Part shown: in pieces, positions 18,146 through 36,965 of the stretch
Layout of the letters: every line of letters starts with the position of its first letter
Numbering within the stretch: position 1 is the first letter of the stretch
Virus record (IMG/VR): IMGVR_UViG_3300031521_000114
Span: 1-45,979 of that record
Reading direction: 5' to 3' (one strand)
DNA from: a virus
Length of the DNA stretch: 45,979 nucleotides
The notes under the pieces: model-generated
Database searches by the model: none
Seen by the model: the letters and a program-made list of their open reading frames with translations, nothing else
What the model was told of the DNA's origin: nothing
Position numbers and translations under genes: made by a program

Positions 18146-19199
18146 CACTTGTTAAGGTTGGACTATCCCTTCACCATATATAATTATTATACTTAGGTGT
18201 ACCTATTATAGTCTCTGCACGTCTCTATCTCTTTATAATTACCTAGTAGGTGAATAGATTTCGCTCAGGATTAGATTTCCATCTCTTTCCCTGAATTTAA
18301 GGTATATGCCCTTCTACTTTCATAGAAGGCGAGCCATTTATCATATTTTCTTTTTATAAAAATATGGGAATTTCCATACATTAATTCTCCTAGTTTTAGT
18401 ACCTCATTTATTTTATGAATTTCTACGTAATATAAAAATAAAGAATCAGAAATACTATTTTTTCTTTTTCTTAAATATACTGTAAAACCATATTTTAATA
18501 AAAAATTTTTAATTTGTTCAATAAATACTAATGATCTACCACAAATAAAAAAACCTAAGTGGTTACAACTAGAATGAAATCCCCCATCTCCATCAAATAT
18601 ACCTCTTAGTATATTCCATGTTATAGGAGTATATATTTTACAATCATAACTTTTATTATTAAAATTACCTTTTCTTTTTAACCATTCTTCTACTTCACAA
18701 TTAGTAAAACATACTGCATGCATGTAAGAATTATTTAAATTTTGTAATACTTTTTGTAATTTTAGATTAGGATTAATGAAATTTCTAAATTGTTCTACAA
18801 TATAACCATCTCTTTCATTTAAAGATAGACTAATAGTACTATTCTTTTTTTCTCTACCCTTACTGATACAACCATCTGTAAGAAGTAATCCTAGAAAATA
18901 TTCTGAATACTCACAATTTCTTTTAAATGGATTATTTTTACATAATCTCAAAACTTTTTCACCTTTTCTAATTTTTATATTATTTCTAATTAAAACTCTT
19001 CTTATAGAAGTATTAAAAGTATTGTAAAAATTAGCTATATCTTTTTGAGATTTTCCTAATTTATACATTTTAACAATTTCTAGTTCTTTTTCTTTTGTAA
19101 ATTTACTCATTATAACTTACTCTTTATTATTAATATGCAAAGATAAGTAAAATAATCAGTAAATACAATAGTTATAGTAAAATACTAAATATATGTAAC
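18146..19199 (-). ncRNA. Group I intron 1 in polA (motif A), encodes LAGLIDADG endonuclease
   Basis: Canonical P, Q, R and S elements can be read on the minus strand: P ATTCAGGGAAAG (18286-18298 region), Q AATCCTGAGC (18263-18274 region), R GCAGAGACTATA (18207-18220 region), S GGGATAGTCC (18160-18169). P4 pairs TTCAGG with CCTGAG, P3 pairs TACCT with AGGTA, P8 pairs CACC with GGTG, and P7 pairs GACTAT with ATAGTC. The 3' end lies just after AACAAGTG. The exact 5' site is uncertain within about 19185-19205; CTT|GTA is the only junction I found that keeps the frame, has U before and G at the ends, and leaves motif A intact, though it adds one residue relative to E. coli PolI. Confidence 0.8.
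18271..19110 (-). CDS. Intron-encoded LAGLIDADG homing endonuclease
   Basis: The protein has 279 residues. Two LAGLIDADG helices are seen: YFLGLLLTDGCI (71-82) and ILRGIFDGDGGF (167-178), each ending in the acidic catalytic residue, so it is a monomeric two-motif enzyme. The N-terminal 50 residues (KELEIVKMYKLGKSQKDIA) look like a resolvase-type helix-turn-helix. The last dozen codons lie inside the intron's catalytic core: the codons for YTLNSGKEME supply P3 and P4 strands and the TAA stop is inside the Q element. It probably targets the motif A codons of intronless polA. Confidence 0.9.
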   Translation of the reverse strand: MSKFTKEKELEIVKMYKLGKSQKDIANFYNTFNTSIRRVLIRNNIKIRKGEKVLRLCKNNPFKRNCEYSEYFLGLLLTDGCISKGREKKNSTISLSLNERDGYIVEQFRNFINPNLKLQKVLQNLNNSYMHAVCFTNCEVEEWLKRKGNFNNKSYDCKIYTPITWNILRGIFDGDGGFHSSCNHLGFFICGRSLVFIEQIKNFLLKYGFTVYLRKRKNSISDSLFLYYVEIHKINEVLKLGELMYGNSHIFIKRKYDKWLAFYESRRAYTLNSGKEMEI

Positions 19200-20501
19200 A
19201 AGTTTTATTAACTCTAAGGCACTATAATCACAACTACACATATAGTTATCTTTCTTTGAAATAAAGGCACTTCTAGTATCTTCATCTGCAGGTAGATTCT
19301 GTAATTGAGGATAAGAACATACTAAGTCACTTTGTTTATTAGAAGGTTTAATAGGTAATTTTTTAAGTTTAGCTAAATCAGTATTAATTTGTTTACTACC
19401 GCATGACATCCTAGAAGAAGAAGCACCAATTTGTTTAAATTGGGTATGTATTCTTTCAGTTAAAGGATTTATAGCATTTAAATATTTTTGTCCATAAGTG
19501 CTTACTACTTTTTCAGCTTCTTTATAATCAAAATATATTTTTAAAAAATCATCATTTATTCCTTTTTGTCCTTTTAAATGCTTTTCTAAAACACTTTCTT
19601 TATCTTCTCCTGTCTTTTTATCTACTACTTTAGTATCAAATCCTAAATATTTAGCAAGTTTTATTACTTGTTGTGAACTTGCCCAATTTATATTACATAC
19701 AGGTTCTGAATTAAAACCTTCAAATAGATCACCTTGTAAATTAGAAACATAAAATTTTGGATTATTTAAAGCTATTGTAAATATATTAAGTTTAATAGCA
19801 CCATTTTGCATATTTAACTTATCTTTTAACATCTTTTTATTCCATTTATCTACATCTAATTTTATACCACACCATTCTAAATATGATATTACAGGTACAA
19901 AATCACATTCTAATTTAGCTCCTATTATGCAGTCTTTTCTTTTACATTCTTCTATTTGTTTTTCTACTATATCTTCTAACCATTTTACATCATTAGCAGC
20001 ATAAACTATTACAGAATCATCAAGACCTCTCCATATAATTTCACCTCTAATTGATTTATCTAAATCTATATTTAAATATCTTTTAGCAATAGCTAGTAAT
20101 GAGAAACTTATTCCTCCAGGTATATTTCCAGGAGGATAACCTAAATATAATAATTGTTCTACTATCATAGTATCATATACTTTAGTAGGTATAATATTAT
20201 ATTTGAATAAAAATTGTAAATCAAATTTTAGATTTTGACCTATAATAAGTTTAGTTTCTAATAACTTCTTATAATGTAAAATAGATATAGTAGTAGTATC
20301 TACTACAATTTGAATATCTTGTTTTTTATTACCAAATTGAGCACATAATATATCACATATATGTGCATCTCTTCCAGTAGTTTCAGTATCAAATTGTATT
20401 ACATTAAAAGACTCTATCATTTTAATAGAGCCCTCTAATGTAAGTTTTGTATAATTAGAAGAATCAAATAGACTTAATTGACTACTTACTAAATATATCA
20501 T
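19200..20501 (-). CDS. polA: DNA polymerase A, exon 1 (3'-5' exonuclease and motif A)
   Basis: The exon encodes the N-terminal 434 residues of the replicative family A polymerase. A DEDD 3'-5' exonuclease begins at FDTETTG (Asp38, Glu40), with Exo II at IGQNLKFDLQFLF and a later YAANDVKWLEDIV (Exo III). The thumb and palm follow, including SSRMSCGSKQINTD, LQNLPADEDTRSAF and motif A CDYSALEL (catalytic Asp425). No 5'-3' nuclease domain is present, as in other phage PolAs. The reading frame runs into the intron and meets TAG at 19185, so without splicing the protein would end just after motif A. The ATG overlaps the stop of the upstream protease-like gene by 4 bases. Confidence 0.88.
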
Positions 20502-25291: not shown

Positions 25292-25775
25292 TGAACATTT
25301 CTCTAAATTCTTTTATGATTTCTAATGCTAATTCTGCATCACATTTACAACGAAATCCTATAAAACCCGTTTTTACTTCTAAGCTATTAATATAGTAAGA
25401 TGAAATTTCATTTTTAATAGATGATATAGCCCATACTTTACCTCCTACTTCTTCTAGTAAAGAATTACAATTCTTATTGAGTTCTTTAGCAATATAAGTT
25501 AGTAATAACTTCAAATAAATATTAGGATGCTCTTGTAATAAAACATCTTCACTTTCTTTTCCAAGTAACATAAAAATATTATAACGAGCATTTATATATA
25601 ATACCCGTTTTTTATTATTAGGTGCAATCTCTTTTGATACTAATAAATCATATAAATAATCAATGTTAAATCTAGATATTACAACTTTAGTAATACCATC
25701 TGGATATTTATAACTATTTTTATTTACTAAATGTGTATAGATAACTTTACCATAAAATCTTTCTTTATTCTTCAT
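25278..25775 (-). CDS. Hypothetical protein downstream of the E1-like gene (165 aa)
   Basis: This is not recognised. I prefer the ATG at 25775 (MKNKERFYGKVIYTH), which overlaps the upstream gene by 11 bases; an ATG at 25802 would overlap by 38. A mixed alpha/beta protein is likely. The C-terminal part has TGFIGFRCKCDAELALEII, including a CKC pair that could be functional but has no known match. Being co-transcribed behind the Ubl/E2/JAB/E1 genes, it could be an accessory protein or a target; this is a guess from position. Confidence 0.6.
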   Translation of the reverse strand: MKNKERFYGKVIYTHLVNKNSYKYPDGITKVVISRFNIDYLYDLLVSKEIAPNNKKRVLYINARYNIFMLLGKESEDVLLQEHPNIYLKLLLTYIAKELNKNCNSLLEEVGGKVWAISSIKNEISSYYINSLEVKTGFIGFRCKCDAELALEIIKEFREMFIDGK

Positions 25776-26280
25776 TGTTATATTCCTTTTTAAGTTCTTC
25801 AATAAAATCTTTACTAATTTCTTCCTGTACTTCTGGTTTATAACTATCTAAAGTTATAATTAATATATTAGACCAACTATTTAATTTATCTACTGTTTCA
25901 TAACTTATATCTTTGTTAGGGTTTAATCCAAATTTTTTGAGTTCTCTTTTAATATATACTAAATGCGTAGAAGGTGCATTTTCAAAATAATTAATATTAA
26001 CAAAAAATTTAGGTTTTTCCTCCTTATAACATAGTATACCTAAAATATCATTACTGTATGCATTTAATATAATCCCTGGAGATATTAAAAATCTATATCC
26101 TTTAGGTATATACAAAATATCACCTTTTGTAGTATTAAATATAAAAGAAAAAGCTTCTTTTACACTAGGAAATTCATGATTAGATTCCTTTATCTTATGT
26201 ATATTACCTTTAATAGGAAATAAAATGTGTAAATAAGGAATCCAACCTTCATAATTTTTATTATTTTTCTTTAAGAACAT
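25765..26280 (-). CDS. Hypothetical protein directly after the E1-like gene (171 aa)
   Basis: I do not recognise this protein. Predicted mixed alpha/beta, beginning MFLKKNNKNYEGWIPYLH and containing GDILYIPKGYRFLISPGIIL, which suggests a beta-rich core. It starts 2 bases after the stop of the E1-like gene, so it belongs to the same transcript as the conjugation cassette. No membrane segment or nuclease motif is visible. Confidence 0.6.
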   Translation of the reverse strand: MFLKKNNKNYEGWIPYLHILFPIKGNIHKIKESNHEFPSVKEAFSFIFNTTKGDILYIPKGYRFLISPGIILNAYSNDILGILCYKEEKPKFFVNINYFENAPSTHLVYIKRELKKFGLNPNKDISYETVDKLNSWSNILIITLDSYKPEVQEEISKDFIEELKKEYNNEE

Positions 26281-26282
26281 AT

Positions 26283-26945
26283 TTATAGTGTTAATTTATT
26301 AAAAAACATATCTCCCAACTCTTCTATTTTAAATGGTACCACACAGTAGGGTTCTTCAGAATATTTATTTATTAAATAATTACATAATACATGTGTAATC
26401 CTAGCTCCTATAAGCATTCCAAAATAAGCAGTTTGCTTATAAGTACAAGGCATTGTATCTACCTCATTATCATCAAATAAAGTTTTTTCATATTTTCTTT
26501 CTCTTCCTTTAGTAACTACAAAGACTTCATAAAAATTAGCTCTTAATCTGCCATCAATAAGTATTTCTCTATCCTCTTTTTCTTTCCAATTATCAAAGAT
26601 TAATTTACGAGCTTTCATGTTGTCAAAGCCCATGATGGTAATAGGATTGTATTCATTTTTAACTAACTTTTTAATACCAATTATATTTTTATAATCAATA
26701 TTGTCACAACATGCTTGTACTTTAGTTTGCCCAATTTGCGATTCTCTAAAGGCTTGTGTGCCTATGTTGTGAGTTTCTACTATATCATCATCAATAATGA
26801 AGTATTTTGCAGGAATTGTTTTCCCTAAAGCCATAATAGTATTACTACCTATACCTCCTACACCAGTCAAAAGAATAGTTTCTTCCTTGGATTTTATGTA
26901 CCAAGGAGCTGTTTTAAAATTACTAAATATTTTATCTGTATCCAT
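26283..26945 (-). CDS. E1/ThiF-like adenylating enzyme
   Basis: The 220-residue protein is a single ThiF/E1 adenylation domain: nucleotide-binding loop LLTGVGGIGSN (Gly28-Ser34), FIIDDDIVETHNIGTQAF (Asp52-54 and Asn60), GQTKVQA (Lys75) and MGFDNMKAR (Asp108). These are the ATP- and Mg-binding positions of the family, which adenylates the C-terminus of a ubiquitin-like protein. A candidate catalytic cysteine lies at Cys167 in DTMPCTYKQT, the site where E1 enzymes form the thioester. It follows the JAB protease gene by 3 bases, and the pairing matches PRTRC and Bil-type prokaryotic ubiquitin-like systems. Confidence 0.85.
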   Translation of the reverse strand: MDTDKIFSNFKTAPWYIKSKEETILLTGVGGIGSNTIMALGKTIPAKYFIIDDDIVETHNIGTQAFRESQIGQTKVQACCDNIDYKNIIGIKKLVKNEYNPITIMGFDNMKARKLIFDNWKEKEDREILIDGRLRANFYEVFVVTKGRERKYEKTLFDDNEVDTMPCTYKQTAYFGMLIGARITHVLCNYLINKYSEEPYCVVPFKIEELGDMFFNKLTL

Positions 26946-26948
26946 AAT

Positions 26949-28076
26949 TTAATTTTTAAAATTATCCATGTGGAACTTAATAATATCATATAACTCTGTG
27001 TAAAAGAAAGTTTTACCATATATTTCATTATAAGTAATTAATAAATCTATAAGTAATTGCATATTAGATTTAAAATTAGTAAAATCTAAATCATCTACAA
27101 TATCCTCATAAACTAGTTCTAAATTACTATCAATGATGTCTATATTATTATCACAAGTTCTTTTATTATCAATATTATCTTTAAAACTAGATTTAATCTT
27201 AGCATCTGTAGTATTACAATCAGAAATAGATTGAGTGTCTATTAATTCTAATAAAAATTCTTTAGGATTAAAAGGCTTTCTTTCATTTTCTATATTAGTA
27301 TAAGCATTTTGTGCATAAATATCCTCTGGAAATAAATCATCTACCTCACTCCATCCTTTACTAAATGCTTTATTATTAAACCATCCATTACTAAGATCAT
27401 TTGTGTTAGCTCTAAAAGGTATATTTTTAGGTTGATAGATAGAAGATGTTTTTACTTTAGCATCTTTTTTCTTTTGTAATTCTTCTATTTTAGAATCCAT
27501 CCAATCTTCATGTGGAATTTCTTTATTATATTCTATAGTTAAATCTCCTATAGCTATAATATCATTTTCTTCACTGATAAGAGTTTCATAAGAATCTCCA
27601 TTTTCATCTATATATGAAATTACAGATTGACTTTTTTCTTTCCCTGGAAATGCTACTTTTGCACAGTATTTACCATCAAAATTAACAATTAAAGATAAAT
27701 AGAAATTGTATAACTTAGCATTTGAAGTCAGTTCATTAATGTCTGTACTACTGAAAAAAGCAGACATTTGGTGGTGCGTGTGAATTAGCCCATTAAACTC
27801 CTCTATTCCAGACTCATACAAATTATAAGCTTCTGCTATATCTCCACTAGCTTCTGTTTCTGTATAAGTAGCATTTCCAATATCTCTAGGATAAATAAAA
27901 GTAGCTTCAAATATTAAATCTTTTTTATTTTTAATATTTCCAGATATTAATTTAAAAAATAACATACCAGACCATTCTGTTGCCCCAATTTTATGATGTA
28001 AATAATCTATAATTTTTAAACATCTATCGTTAATAATTAATTTTCCTACATTGTTTAATTTTATTTCACTACTCAT
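26949..28076 (-). CDS. JAB/JAMM (MPN) domain metalloprotease
   Basis: The N-terminal 180 residues form a JAB domain with a complete zinc site: Glu34 in ATEWSGML, and HTHHQMSAFFSSTD at 99-112 (His99, His101, Ser109, Asp112) matching HxH-x7-SxxD. JAMM enzymes remove or process ubiquitin-like proteins. The remaining 195 residues are charged and probably extended (KIEELQKKKDAK), ending with a helical segment. The family resembles PRTRC protein A (Prok-JAB). It overlaps the E2-like gene by 8 bases and lies 3 bases upstream of the E1-like gene, the expected neighbourhood for a deconjugase or Ubl maturase. Confidence 0.87.
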   Translation of the reverse strand: MSSEIKLNNVGKLIINDRCLKIIDYLHHKIGATEWSGMLFFKLISGNIKNKKDLIFEATFIYPRDIGNATYTETEASGDIAEAYNLYESGIEEFNGLIHTHHQMSAFFSSTDINELTSNAKLYNFYLSLIVNFDGKYCAKVAFPGKEKSQSVISYIDENGDSYETLISEENDIIAIGDLTIEYNKEIPHEDWMDSKIEELQKKKDAKVKTSSIYQPKNIPFRANTNDLSNGWFNNKAFSKGWSEVDDLFPEDIYAQNAYTNIENERKPFNPKEFLLELIDTQSISDCNTTDAKIKSSFKDNIDNKRTCDNNIDIIDSNLELVYEDIVDDLDFTNFKSNMQLLIDLLITYNEIYGKTFFYTELYDIIKFHMDNFKN

Positions 28077-29226
28077 TTTCTTTTTTTATTAAATAATCTA
28101 ATAACTTTGGTTCTAATATTGATTGTATGGAAGTAATTAACCTGGAATGTATCTTTGATTTTTCAAATATTTTTTCTTCAGATTCAATTATTTTTAAATT
28201 TATTTTTTCATGTTTAAAGTAAACTTCAGAAATATCTATACTAGGAGTAGTAGGCACACTTTGTTTATACACATTACTACAACTTACACCTTTAAAACAA
28301 ATAAATTTATCTAACTCTTTACATGTATTTAATAAAGTTTCCATTTCGTCTAAACATTTAGATGAAAACCTAAGATTATACCTATTACAAATATCTTTAT
28401 TTAAAGTATAACCAAAAGAAAAATTATTACTTATTAAATATTTAATAGCAGTATCTGTTTGTACAGAGTAACTTCTTTCAATATCATAGTTATATATATG
28501 ATTTTCAATATTTGTAAAAGTGTAATAAGGAGTACCTTCTAAAGATTCCCAACTTAAATATCCATATAAACTAGATATAATATAATCTATAGAAGTGTAA
28601 TTAATAGTAAAAGAGTTTATACACTTTTTAACATTATTTTGCAGTACAGTATCTCCAAAGCATAAAGAACCACTATATCTTCCTAAACGAGTTCCATTAC
28701 AATGTGAAAATAAATAATGTTGATATTCATAATCTAAAACAGTAGTTCTAGCTAATAGAATATTTAATGTTTTATTGTTTATTTTTAATTTTACATATAA
28801 ATCTCTCATAATATGAGATCCTCCTTGAGAATTGCTGATAGTAATGGTAGGAAAATATATTATTATAGAATTATTCCTATTATCTTTCCATACTTTATCC
28901 TCCCCATAATAGAAAACTGCTTTTTTATAAGCAAAGTTATAATAAACATCATTATTTTTAGGTATATTATACTTATAAAAATTTTTACATTCTATATAAT
29001 CATTATAATTAAATGTTTTAACATCACAAATATCATAGTATGAGTCTACGTTTTCCCCAATTACTCTATAACTATCTTTATATCTTGGTTTTATTATGTT
29101 ATCAAAGTAAGTAAAATATTTATTTTTGAAGAAATCATCTGAATTACCTAGAATTTTTTCTACTTCAGAATCTTTCATCCTTAAAAATTCTTGAAAATAT
29201 CTGTTTGTATAATCCATATTTAGCAT
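28069..29226 (-). CDS. E2-like (Prok-E2_D / PRTRC-B type) conjugating enzyme, putative
   Basis: The 385-residue protein has the pattern of prokaryotic E2-like proteins linked with JAB and ThiF: a beta-rich N-terminal half, then YLFSHCNGTRLGRYSGSLCFGD at 171-192. The G-S-L-C-F-G-D element matches the GxxCxG catalytic-cysteine motif of this group, with Cys189 as the candidate thioester residue and His175 nearby. After it comes SLYGYLSWESLEGTPYYTF. The C-terminal 130 residues are unassigned. ATG at 29226 or 29217 could start it. It lies directly downstream of a hairpin that separates it from the candidate Ubl gene. The E2 call is by motif and context, not by alignment. Confidence 0.65.
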   Translation of the reverse strand: MLNMDYTNRYFQEFLRMKDSEVEKILGNSDDFFKNKYFTYFDNIIKPRYKDSYRVIGENVDSYYDICDVKTFNYNDYIECKNFYKYNIPKNNDVYYNFAYKKAVFYYGEDKVWKDNRNNSIIIYFPTITISNSQGGSHIMRDLYVKLKINNKTLNILLARTTVLDYEYQHYLFSHCNGTRLGRYSGSLCFGDTVLQNNVKKCINSFTINYTSIDYIISSLYGYLSWESLEGTPYYTFTNIENHIYNYDIERSYSVQTDTAIKYLISNNFSFGYTLNKDICNRYNLRFSSKCLDEMETLLNTCKELDKFICFKGVSCSNVYKQSVPTTPSIDISEVYFKHEKINLKIIESEEKIFEKSKIHSRLITSIQSILEPKLLDYLIKKENE

Positions 29227-29230
29227 TTAA

Positions 29231-29261
29231 AATATAGGGGGATTTAATATCCCCCTATATT
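29231..29261 (-). terminator. Strong hairpin between candidate Ubl and E2-like genes
   Basis: AATATAGGGGG and CCCCCTATATT form a perfect 11-bp stem around a 9-base loop in the 47-base gap after the candidate Ubl stop. On the minus strand it is followed by TTTTAAATG, a short U-tract. It looks like a partial intrinsic terminator that would lower expression of E2, JAB and E1 relative to the Ubl. Confidence 0.75.
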
Positions 29262-29273
29262 ATTAATAAATTA

Positions 29274-29786
29274 TTATTTTTTTAATTTAGAAGTAATTTC
29301 TACAGCTTCTTTTTGTAAAGTGTTTGTAGTTACAAAATCAGCTAAGTCACTAATTTCAACTACAGCACTATTTTTATTACTAACATTTGATGCTTCAGGT
29401 GTTACTACTTTTTTAGTTGTATCACTAATACTACTAACAAACTCTTGTAGTTTAGAAGTAGTTGTTTGTGTATAATTAAAATTTACCACTCCTCCTTGTT
29501 GTTTATACTCTTTAATAATAGTATATAGTTCAGATCTAGTATACACACCCGAAGAGGTTTTGGTTACACTTATAAACAAAATAGAATCAATATTTGGAAG
29601 TAGAGCAGTATCTAACTCAATTGTATTTTGAGTGGCTCTATCTACCAATTTAGATTGTCCCCAATTAATATTTAATTCTTTTACTTCAGGTAATTCTTTA
29701 AATTCTCCTAAATTTCTAACGGAAGTTTCAATAGTAACCAATTGTAATCTAGTAAGTAGTTTTAACTTTAAAATTCTTGTACTCAT
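29274..29786 (-). CDS. Candidate ubiquitin-like (beta-grasp) protein
   Basis: The 170-residue protein starts STRILKLKLLTRLQLVTIETS, two strands separated by a turn, then a helix-like GEFKELPEVK, a strand ELNINWG, KLVDRATQNTIELDTALLP and a final strand SILFISVTK (residues 68-76), the order expected of a beta-grasp fold. The rest is a serine/threonine-rich, probably flexible tail. There is no C-terminal Gly-Gly; a SSG at 78-80 ends the putative domain. It is placed first in a Ubl-E2-JAB-E1 cassette. The fold and function are inferences from pattern and context; a structure prediction would decide. Confidence 0.5.
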   Translation of the reverse strand: MSTRILKLKLLTRLQLVTIETSVRNLGEFKELPEVKELNINWGQSKLVDRATQNTIELDTALLPNIDSILFISVTKTSSGVYTRSELYTIIKEYKQQGGVVNFNYTQTTTSKLQEFVSSISDTTKKVVTPEASNVSNKNSAVVEISDLADFVTTNTLQKEAVEITSKLKK

Positions 29787-29798
29787 TTTTTTCTTTTT

Positions 29799-30806
29799 TT
29801 AATTAATTAATTTATCTAAAACGGATATAAATATTTCTTTCCCATGATTTTTATATAAATCACTAGGATCTTTAGACATATATTCTGTAGGTATTTCTAT
29901 TTGAATCAATTTAAATTCTTTAGCAATAGCTGCACCATAATTATGTCCATAATTAATAGGTTTATTAAAATCATTATCATAGAAGATAAATATTTTTTTA
30001 AACCTTCCTTTAAGTTCATTAATTACCTGTTTTTTAGGAAAGTAACCTTCAGCTTGTAAAGAAGTTGCAGGTGTACCAGTATTATTAATAATAGTTAAAG
30101 CATCTTTTCTACTGGATGTTATTATTAATGTATTTCCTTTAGCAGGTAATAAGTCCCATAAGTCCCATACAGAAGGATTGTGGTTATTTCTCCATTTATA
30201 TTCTTTACTGTATGGTTGATAAGTTTTAATACTTGGAGTATTATCTTTATACTCTATATAAGCAAAAGCATATTTTTCAGTTCCAAATGTATAAGATTTA
30301 TCTTTCTTTTTTATAATAATATGTGATATTGGGTAAGTATTACTTTTAATTAACAATGGCAGTTCAATGCCATATTGTTTCCAATACTCTAAATCAGATT
30401 CTTTCCATTCTCTGACTTTCACCTTCATCTCACTACTACTATTATAAGTAATATGATCTTTTTTAGTATCCTTTATTACTAAGTTTATATTATTATATCT
30501 TTTCTTTTTTATTTCCTCTATATCACTATAAATCTTATTTATTAATTCTTGAAAAGATATTTTACAATACAGCTTTAAAAGAGTAAATATATTTCCATTT
30601 TCTCCAGTAGCAAAATCTTTAAATTTCACTTTAAAATTTTCTGATAAAGTAATACCAAATGAAGGATGTTTATCTACTCTTAAAGGGGATTTTATTACAC
30701 AAGGTAATGAGTTAATATTAAAATAATATTTTAATATCTGATACTCATTTACTTGTGTAATTATATCTTCTAAAGAATTTTTATTAGAAATTCCCCTTGC
30801 AAACAT
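29799..30806 (-). CDS. DnaG-like TOPRIM primase
   Basis: The 335-residue protein makes RNA primers for the lagging strand. The N-terminal part, SPLRVDKHPSFGI ... KFKDFATGENGNIFTLL (40-76), corresponds to the CHC2-type region but the zinc ligands are mostly absent. The TOPRIM domain is near the C-terminus: LIITSSRKDALTI (227-239) and IFIFYDNDFNKPINYGHNYG (272-291, DxD at 277-279), followed by KDPSDLYKNHG. Where typical primases have the catalytic glutamate, serine is seen (SSRKD), as in some Bacteroidetes-phage primases. It lies between SSB and the candidate Ubl gene, separated by 3 and 12 bases. Confidence 0.82.
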   Translation of the reverse strand: MFARGISNKNSLEDIITQVNEYQILKYYFNINSLPCVIKSPLRVDKHPSFGITLSENFKVKFKDFATGENGNIFTLLKLYCKISFQELINKIYSDIEEIKKKRYNNINLVIKDTKKDHITYNSSSEMKVKVREWKESDLEYWKQYGIELPLLIKSNTYPISHIIIKKKDKSYTFGTEKYAFAYIEYKDNTPSIKTYQPYSKEYKWRNNHNPSVWDLWDLLPAKGNTLIITSSRKDALTIINNTGTPATSLQAEGYFPKKQVINELKGRFKKIFIFYDNDFNKPINYGHNYGAAIAKEFKLIQIEIPTEYMSKDPSDLYKNHGKEIFISVLDKLIN

Positions 30807-35660: not shown

Positions 35661-36965
35661 TTATTTGTGTTGATTAATAATTATTTCTCTTATATCTGTA
35701 ATAGAAGTTTGATTATAAAAATTACCATTTTCATATATAACTTTTAATTCTCTTTGCTCTTCTTGCTCTTTGGTAGATTGATCTAACACATAATAATCTC
35801 CAGTTACATCATTCTGACATACTGTACATAATCCTTTTAATGATTTTTTCATACCATCATCTGTAACTGGATCTTTGTATATATCATATCCTACACCATT
35901 AGCTTCAAACCAAGCTCCTTTTGCTGCAAACCCAAATGTATCTCTAGTGTTATATTGATAAGTAAATGATCCAACTCCTAAAGTAATATTAGTAGAGGCA
36001 AATCCTTTAGTTTCAAGACTTTTATAAATTTCAACTTGTCTTTCTAAAGTAATACTATCTCCATATATAGCTCCAATATGAGAGTCTAAAACTTTATAAC
36101 CTTGTTCATTAATAGTACCACCAAATATATCCCAAAGAAGTTCTATTGCCCCTTTATGCTCAGGTTGTTCACCATTACCATTAGTAATATCTTTAATAGA
36201 ATTAGTACAATAAATTTTACTAAAATATTTATTTAATTCATCAAATCCTTTAGAAAATATACCATGTGTAACCATTAAATATAAATTACCAGCATTTTTC
36301 TTTTTAAGTTCTTGAGCTAATCCAATAAAAGTACCACCACCATCACAAATATCATCTATAATAATGCAATTTTTATGTAGTAAATCATCTGTAAATACTT
36401 CAAATCCAGTTAATTGCCCTGTTTTAGTATCTCTAGTTTTATCACATTTAACTATACTATCAAATTGATATTTTTGAGCTAATTTATTAATCTTTTTATT
36501 AGAACCTGCATCTGGAGATATTAATACTAAATCTTCAGTATCTAAACAAAAGCCAGCAATTAAAGAGTTGTTACTTGTATTTATTACATTATTTAATAAC
36601 GCAGCACCAACATCAGAATGACAATCTAATATTTTTACTGAATTGAAATTCATAAAGTTAATTATATTACAAAACACTTTTAAACTAAAAGCTTCACCAT
36701 GCTCACATCTTCTATCTTGCCTAGCATAAGGAAGATAAGGCATATATAAATGTACTTCAGTAGGTTTTAAAGCATCTAAAGCCTCTTTAACCATTAATAA
36801 TTTTACTAATTCTTCAGAATTATCAATTCTAGCTAATATTCTAAAATTTTCATTAGTAAGATCTTCATTAATCTTAACACTTACCTCTCCACCTGAAAAT
36901 GTAAAACTTTGATATTTTACAGATTTAAATACATTATATTCTACTTCTTTTTGTATATCTATTAT
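35661..36965 (-). CDS. Prs-NAMPT chimera (NAD metabolism), NAMPT part truncated
   Basis: Reading about 434 codons from 36965, the N-terminal part is a PRPP-synthetase-like enzyme: FTFSGGEVSVKI, HLYMPYLPYARQDRR, ISPDAGSNKK and IIDDICDGGGTF (PRPP loop, about 203-214). After TNSIKDI it passes directly into the last ~165 residues of nicotinamide phosphoribosyltransferase: GAIELLWDIFGGTINEQ, HIGAIYGDSITLERQ, NTRDTFGFAAKG. Normal NAMPT is near 490 residues, so about 300, including several active-site residues, are missing. No ATG exists upstream of 36794 and that ATG is inside conserved Prs sequence, so initiation must be at a non-standard codon (ATA at 36965 or 36962) or the start is damaged. It may be a remnant of the two-gene NAD salvage (NARP1-like) module. 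Confidence 0.75.
   Translation of the reverse strand: MIDIQKEVEYNVFKSVKYQSFTFSGGEVSVKINEDLTNENFRILARIDNSEELVKLLMVKEALDALKPTEVHLYMPYLPYARQDRRCEHGEAFSLKVFCNIINFMNFNSVKILDCHSDVGAALLNNVINTSNNSLIAGFCLDTEDLVLISPDAGSNKKINKLAQKYQFDSIVKCDKTRDTKTGQLTGFEVFTDDLLHKNCIIIDDICDGGGTFIGLAQELKKKNAGNLYLMVTHGIFSKGFDELNKYFSKIYCTNSIKDITNGNGEQPEHKGAIELLWDIFGGTINEQGYKVLDSHIGAIYGDSITLERQVEIYKSLETKGFASTNITLGVGSFTYQYNTRDTFGFAAKGAWFEANGVGYDIYKDPVTDDGMKKSLKGLCTVCQNDVTGDYYVLDQSTKEQEEQRELKVIYENGNFYNQTSITDIREIIINQHK

Follow-up and report, generated by a model that had tools for sequence, protein, structure and literature searches.

The virus record IMGVR_UViG_3300031521_000114 contains, within the 45,979-base stretch analysed here in its entirety (the window), four adjacent open reading frames (ORFs) occupying positions 26283-29786 of the minus strand, on which all features of this cassette described below are located. 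In order of transcription they encode a candidate ubiquitin-like protein (Ubl), an E2-like protein, a JAB/JAMM metalloprotease and an E1/ThiF-type activating enzyme, with 170, 385, 375 and 220 amino acids, respectively. Taken together, the data point to a phage-encoded ubiquitin-like conjugation system, a reading to which we give a probability of roughly three in four. An earlier note on this DNA had already reported the four consecutive genes and singled out the residues E2 Cys189, JAB Glu34, His99, His101 and Asp112, and E1 Cys167; all were located where it had placed them, with JAB Ser109 being also present. The genomic setting that it described, between primase and DNA polymerase, was equally recovered: a DnaG-type primase gene (29799-30806, minus strand; phrog_12622, E = 2e-49, supported by synteny) lies directly upstream of the cassette, while a Holliday resolvase, an exonuclease, a ribonucleotide reductase and the DNA polymerase (19185-20501) are encoded downstream.

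The E1 protein (26283-26945) matches the Pfam ThiF family with E = 1e-10 and 41.6 bits, above the family cut-off of 28.1, and a search of its profile against the PDB returned UBA5 first, with Cap2 also among the matches. Both the nucleotide-binding motif GxGGIG (26847-26864) and the candidate catalytic Cys167 (codon 26445-26447), which lies in a conserved C[ST]xKQT motif, are conserved across the family. When residue conservation was counted over the distinct, ungapped rows of the family alignments, Cys167 was found in 82 of 82, in agreement with the ThiF/E1 domain proposed earlier. The JAB protein (26949-28076) matches Pfam Prok-JAB with E = 1.4e-4 and 22.2 bits, below the cut-off of 25, and the best PDB matches of its profile were CSN5 and JAMM1. 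The complete zinc site attributed to this protease is there, with Glu34 and the stretch His99-x-His101...Ser109-x-x-Asp112 (27741-27782) forming together a JAMM site whose residues are kept in nearly all rows. In the PADLOC defence library, the best matches were CBASS-type E1-E2 and JAB models.

In the AlphaFold2 model of the 170-residue protein (29274-29786; model m898724fdd048), the predicted local distance difference test (pLDDT) scores lie mostly at 95-98 across residues 1-70. Compared by VIA with ubiquitin, UBX and DIX folds, the model gave Z scores of 8.4-9.3, with 8 being the level treated as safe. The beta-grasp (ubiquitin-like) domain corresponds to residues 1-80 (29547-29786). A model lacking this fold, which the earlier note had named as the outcome contrary to its proposal, was not obtained. 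In several VIA rows the residues up to 79-80 are aligned with ubiquitin residue 76, meaning that Ser79-Gly80 (codons at 29547-29552) occupies the place of the ubiquitin Gly-Gly. Gly80, the predicted end of the mature Ubl, is present in 75 of 75 rows, and Ser79 in 72 of the 75 that have a letter at this position.

The Ubl gene corresponds to a fusion, in which the Ubl and its Ser-Gly are followed by a small HeH-like helical protein (about residues 81-126; 29409-29546). In relatives that carry the rIIA and rIIB genes (the rII type) and have no cassette, the gene after the primase usually encodes a protein standing on its own, whose match to the fusion is confined to the part following Ser-Gly, and in the alignment the start codon of the standalone HeH gene coincides with the fusion joint. 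Some fusions even retain a vestigial methionine at the joint, as in locus L204 (...QVRSG-MDRQEAY). The HeH gene is present in 16 of 19 rII loci, and the beta-grasp part was not found in any of the 19 rII and 13 amidoligase loci that were checked. In two cases the Ubl stops just past the Ser-Gly, namely in cr106_1 (...KKIKSGKF*), where an HNH gene separates the two halves, and in L085 (...VKSGEVV*). The existence of standalone HeH proteins in cassette-free relatives suggests that JAB probably cuts after Gly80, and cleavage of the Ubl-HeH precursor at this point would be the simplest mechanism compatible with these sequences. A tail motif resembling S-x-x-EI-x-x-MF was noticed at the end of many cassette-type HeH proteins (L004-L014, L195, L204, L256), being missing from rII-type HeH and from the window protein; it may act as a docking peptide.

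The E2-like protein (28069-29226; AlphaFold2 model mc11df4921397) has a predicted UBC-type core at about residues 88-228. In the model, which has a mean pLDDT of 75, residues 90-200 of the core mostly score above 85, and the layout consists of a helix, a strand meander, the cysteine after a short strand, and then further helices. VIA ranks 1-19 were all taken by E2/UEV folds, including Cap2 (Z 6.6-4.7, root-mean-square deviation 3.1-4.5, 106-135 residues), with unrelated folds beginning at Z 4.5. The candidate catalytic Cys189 (codon 28660-28662) lies in SLCFGD and is preceded by a second conserved motif, Y171-x-H/F-S-H175 (28702-28716). Cys189, Gly191 and Glu227 are invariant in 62 sequences, and the cysteine is found in 79 of 79 ungapped relatives. 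The proposal that this protein is E2-like thus stands, since the best matches are all E2/UEV folds and neither of the outcomes named against it, a different fold and a variable Cys189, was seen. We assign to the 385-residue protein, with moderate confidence, a predicted E2/UBC fold with a conserved cysteine. Foldseek searches of the model in BFVD gave significant matches to phage proteins, the named ones being uncharacterised proteins of crAss-like phages and podoviruses. Neither the Ubl nor the E2-like protein, each searched as a single protein, matched anything in Pfam, PHROGs, NCBIfam or PADLOC; as families of 61-62 members they gave no convincing match in Pfam, and profile searches of PDB sequences with both yielded chance matches only. 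As a separate observation on the coding sequences, the stretch encoding HSH is targeted by group I introns in the JAB and E2 genes alike: in L023, L037, L040 and L046 an intron splits JAB within or close to the GLIH-SHN zinc-motif codons, and the E2 gene of L039 is split at YMH-SH. A break at about the same site of JAB is seen in L050, L059, L091 and L094.

The E1 gene was located by tblastn in three sets of phages: Steigviridae, among them crAss001, DAC15, cr111 and cr85; the FpV4 group of Flavobacterium phages; and gut phages without classification. The cassette genes and their order were the same in every neighbourhood opened in these groups. Dozens of IMG/VR contigs share this order with crAss001, DAC15 and the Flavobacterium phage FpV4, all three of them cultured, and what looks like a complete set of protein-tagging genes is thus carried by a large family of crAss-like phages from the gut and the environment. 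Scanning IMG/VR with the E1 alignment yielded 80 loci; scans by family alignment were productive for E1 and Ubl and not for E2, and those made with the single E1 and E2 sequences gave no matches. When the genes were identified with family hidden Markov models (HMMs), and those split by insertions or ORF calling were counted, the Ubl-E2-JAB-E1 order was present in 85 of 97 E1-carrying loci, the remainder being mostly truncated contigs. The relatives share only about 14-40% identity with the window proteins, so that the near-invariance of the residues described above reflects selection and not recency. No cassette was present in the one Suoliviridae and two Intestiviridae neighbourhoods opened, the p-crAssphage type being represented by CrAssphage ZA. 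The jumbo Xanthomonas phage PhiXhv-15 carries an E1 relative (L015:5956-6639), with JAB, E2 and Ubl not recognisable nearby. Bacterial chromosomal copies were also considered and discarded, as both genome matches, found in contigs binned as Clostridium and Spirochaetia metagenome-assembled genomes, look like phage sequence: L106 has a phage primase and the full cassette set, L107 has E1 followed by the gene X5 described below, and both are probably phage contigs.

X5, encoding a protein of 171 amino acids with no assigned function, lies 3' of E1 (25765-26280). In almost every locus a fifth gene comes directly after E1, and the two usually touch or overlap; the X5 HMM matches 66 of 97 E1 loci, and in nearly all others that position is taken by an ORF that was not recognised. 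Loci of the rII and amidoligase types have neither X5 nor the cassette, and because of this joint disappearance X5 is treated as the fifth component of the set.

The cassette occupies a slot, with the primase at its upstream edge, whose content is exchanged among related phages. In cr116_1 the position is taken by rIIA and rIIB, and in cr108_1 by an operon encoding an ATP-grasp protein, an amidotransferase, a COOH-NH2 ligase and an amidoligase (assignments by Pfam and PHROGs). Among IMG/VR primase loci, 28 had the cassette, 18 had rII, 12 had amidoligases and three had something else or nothing, with 18 further loci being too short to be scored; two modules in one slot were seen in none of them. 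A recount anchored on uracil-DNA glycosylase (UDG), in which some contigs were counted twice, gave 40 cassette, 25 rII and 14 amidoligase loci, again with none shared. A tree of 75 primases requires at least 18 changes of module label, and the strongly supported branches alone force at least seven changes for the cassette, both figures being approximate because the tree was made quickly and leaves many forks open. Slots without a recognised module were also encountered (L233, L235, L225, L226, L229, L240), with UDG or the exonuclease following close behind the primase or the HeH gene; in L240, 6.4 kb of unidentified genes separates primase and UDG.

A terminator-like hairpin, detected in the window as a sequence self-match, lies in the gap between the Ubl and E2 genes (29225-29267, z = -7.8). 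Strong hairpins (z < -2) occur in this gap in 52 of 63 cassette loci, and after the standalone HeH gene in 13 of 14 rII loci, with none found in 24 primase-Ubl gaps. The structure is conserved and the sequence is not, and in both cassette and rII phages it separates the variable module from the gene that contains HeH. The idea that the hairpin is a cassette-specific device for producing Ubl in excess over the enzymes was discarded, as 13/14 rII loci have it too. Its presence after standalone HeH genes indicates that it belongs to the slot and not to the Ubl system.

Among known systems, the plasmid-borne PRTRC operons (Ubl C, E2 B, JAB A and ThiF) share with the cassette the relative order Ubl...E2-JAB-E1. 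In hhalign comparisons, phage E1 and PRTRC ThiF were related with 98.2% probability (E = 3e-14, 177 columns, with the catalytic cysteines aligned) and phage JAB and PRTRC A with 94.6%. PRTRC C of Rhodoferax extends beyond its GTKG, being precursor-like as is the phage Ubl. However, the curated NCBIfam cut-offs were missed (30.2 versus 144.75 bits for PRTRC_ThiF and 14.7 versus 101.8 for PRTRC_A), neither ParB nor PRTRC proteins E and F were annotated in the opened phage neighbourhoods, and the phage cassette differs in being phage-encoded and in carrying the HeH fusion. Of the likeness to PRTRC drawn in the earlier note, the relative gene order agrees, and membership is not supported: the cassette follows a PRTRC-type cascade logic without being filed as PRTRC. 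By sequence, its E1 and JAB are PRTRC-like and its E2 and Ubl belong to no library family searched.

Bacterial operons combining E1, E2, JAB and Ubl were catalogued by Iyer et al. 2006 (PMC1779556), and those of table row 6d share the four-part logic, with separate Ubl, JAB, E1 and E2. In the row 6d E2s the histidine that usually precedes the cysteine is missing, whereas most members of the phage E2 family have a conserved H-S-H 14-16 residues before Cys189. The phage cases in the same catalogue are the lambda/T1 tail assembly proteins TAPI/TAPK, which are Ubl-JAB pairs without E1 or E2. The cassette E1 and E2, encoded by separate ORFs, also differ from Cap2 of type II CBASS, in which they are fused in the order E2-E1. 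No CD-NTase was found among the annotated neighbours of the phage cassette. The E1-E2-JAB logic of Cap2/Cap3 is nevertheless alike, and Cap2 matches the E2 model with Z 5.6. Cap2 uses its activity for CD-NTase conjugation, and both type II CBASS and Bil (BilA-D), which has the same E1-E2-JAB logic as the phage cassette, are bacterial anti-phage defences. The precursor recalls eukaryotic ubiquitin-ribosomal protein fusions, where the Ubl is N-terminal to an independent small protein and a protease splits the two after the last glycine. This is an analogy only, since in the phage the carrier is an HeH-like protein, JAB is encoded next door and the tail is Ser-Gly.

In the model that best accommodates these observations, JAB would cut the Ubl-HeH precursor after Gly80, releasing the HeH protein and a Ubl about 80 residues long. 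Gly80 would then be adenylated by E1, with the Ubl being held as a thioester on Cys167 before its passage to E2 Cys189 and from there to lysines of target proteins, X5 being a possible target or adaptor. Removal of the tag would also be performed by JAB. The components, their motifs, the fixed order and the exchange as one block are well documented in the sequences and predicted structures, and the steps of maturation, activation, conjugation and removal are likely to take place as outlined. A last step, in which the system would serve host takeover or counter-defence during infection, is the least certain, with about even chances of being correct; it is suggested because close relatives carry rIIA-rIIB or the ATP-grasp/amidoligase operon in place of the cassette. 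The rIIAB genes are anti-exclusion (anti-Rex) genes in T4, and the amidoligases exchanging with the cassette are predicted to ligate proteins or peptides. A broader proposal, whose chances we put a little below even, is that the Crassvirales Ubl pathway, with its Ubl released by JAB from the HeH fusion, is a takeover weapon swappable with rIIAB or the amidoligases, all fulfilling one role.

The earlier note had left the purpose of conjugation between inhibition of host defence and modification of replication proteins, and the slot exchange with rIIAB and amidoligases favours the former and disfavours the latter. A part in the core replication programme, with the primase, polymerase or exonuclease being modified, would fit the position of the cassette between primase and DNA polymerase and the possible DNA binding of the helical, SAP/HeH-like protein to which the Ubl is fused. 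Nevertheless, relatives with the same primase and exonuclease, and usually UDG, carry rIIAB, amidoligases or nothing instead, and repeated swapping is untypical of a core replication part, making this role unlikely. The exchange with rIIAB and the PADLOC matches to CBASS-type models would also be consistent with a decoy, which instead of running a cascade of its own would poison host Ubl-based defences (CBASS Cap2/Cap3, Bil) or strip their conjugates. For such a purpose, the E1 with its own cysteine would be needless, and a full, apparently intact cascade is retained, in which the Ubl has a processing site of its own; we regard a decoy as distinctly improbable.

Two further readings dispense with conjugation. 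Since the E1 is ThiF/MoeB-like, and Ubl-JAB-E1 trios are known from sulfur clusters (PMC1779556), the Ubl could be a sulfur carrier of the CysO/QbsE type, converted to a thiocarboxylate that delivers sulfur to a metabolite or RNA, with JAB trimming only. This we hold to be very unlikely, given that no complete cassette lacks its dedicated E2-like protein, whose cysteine is invariant, that the E1 cysteine motif aligns with that of PRTRC E1, which adjoins an E2, and that the annotations of the slot in the opened neighbourhoods include no rhodanese, ThiG or sulfur gene. The weak Foldseek result for the E2 model and the lack of a family match would agree with the four genes being accidental neighbours, the 385-residue protein not being an E2 and the Ubl being just a structural domain. 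However, the order is fixed across distant phages, Cys189, Gly191, Glu227 and Gly80 are near-invariant, and the beta-grasp occurs only where the enzymes occur, so that the odds of an accidental arrangement are minimal.

Several points weigh against the conjugation reading itself. For the E2, the top VIA Z of 6.6 is below 8, the mean pLDDT is modest, Foldseek alone found nothing significant for the model in the PDB, and the protein matches no E2 family in Pfam; because of the low Z and the Foldseek result, the support for the fold is taken as moderate. The Ubl ends in Ser-Gly and not in Gly-Gly, and hhalign detected no relation between phage E2 and PRTRC B or between Ubl and PRTRC C, the PRTRC alignments having four sequences each. 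Conjugation is deduced from sequence and models, the takeover function is argued from location alone, and the switch counts carry the uncertainty of the primase tree.

Elsewhere in the window, a 377-residue ORF (35661-36794) has matches to PRPP synthetase families in the N-terminal half and to nicotinamide phosphoribosyltransferase in the C-terminal half, and is possibly an NAD+-restoring counter-defence gene.

In the open literature searched, no report of a Ubl conjugation cassette in crAss-like phages was found, and priority is not claimed. Deposited records label the E1 as "thiamine biosynthesis protein" and, in one case, as "E1 enzyme family protein". Bacterial Ubl conjugation is known from plasmid operons and from anti-phage defence; a complete phage-encoded cascade, if true, would place Ubl chemistry on the attacker's side. 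Genes that currently bear the labels "thiamine biosynthesis protein" and "hypothetical" would thereby gain a function, and the reading is testable, as the cassette is carried by Crassvirales phages that include the cultured crAss001 and DAC15, and by cultured Flavobacterium phages such as FpV4. The link with rIIAB and amidoligases allows a direct genetic test, and the exchange slot offers a route to further takeover modules. If the proposed equivalence of these modules is true, two different protein-ligation chemistries and rIIAB would fill the same role.

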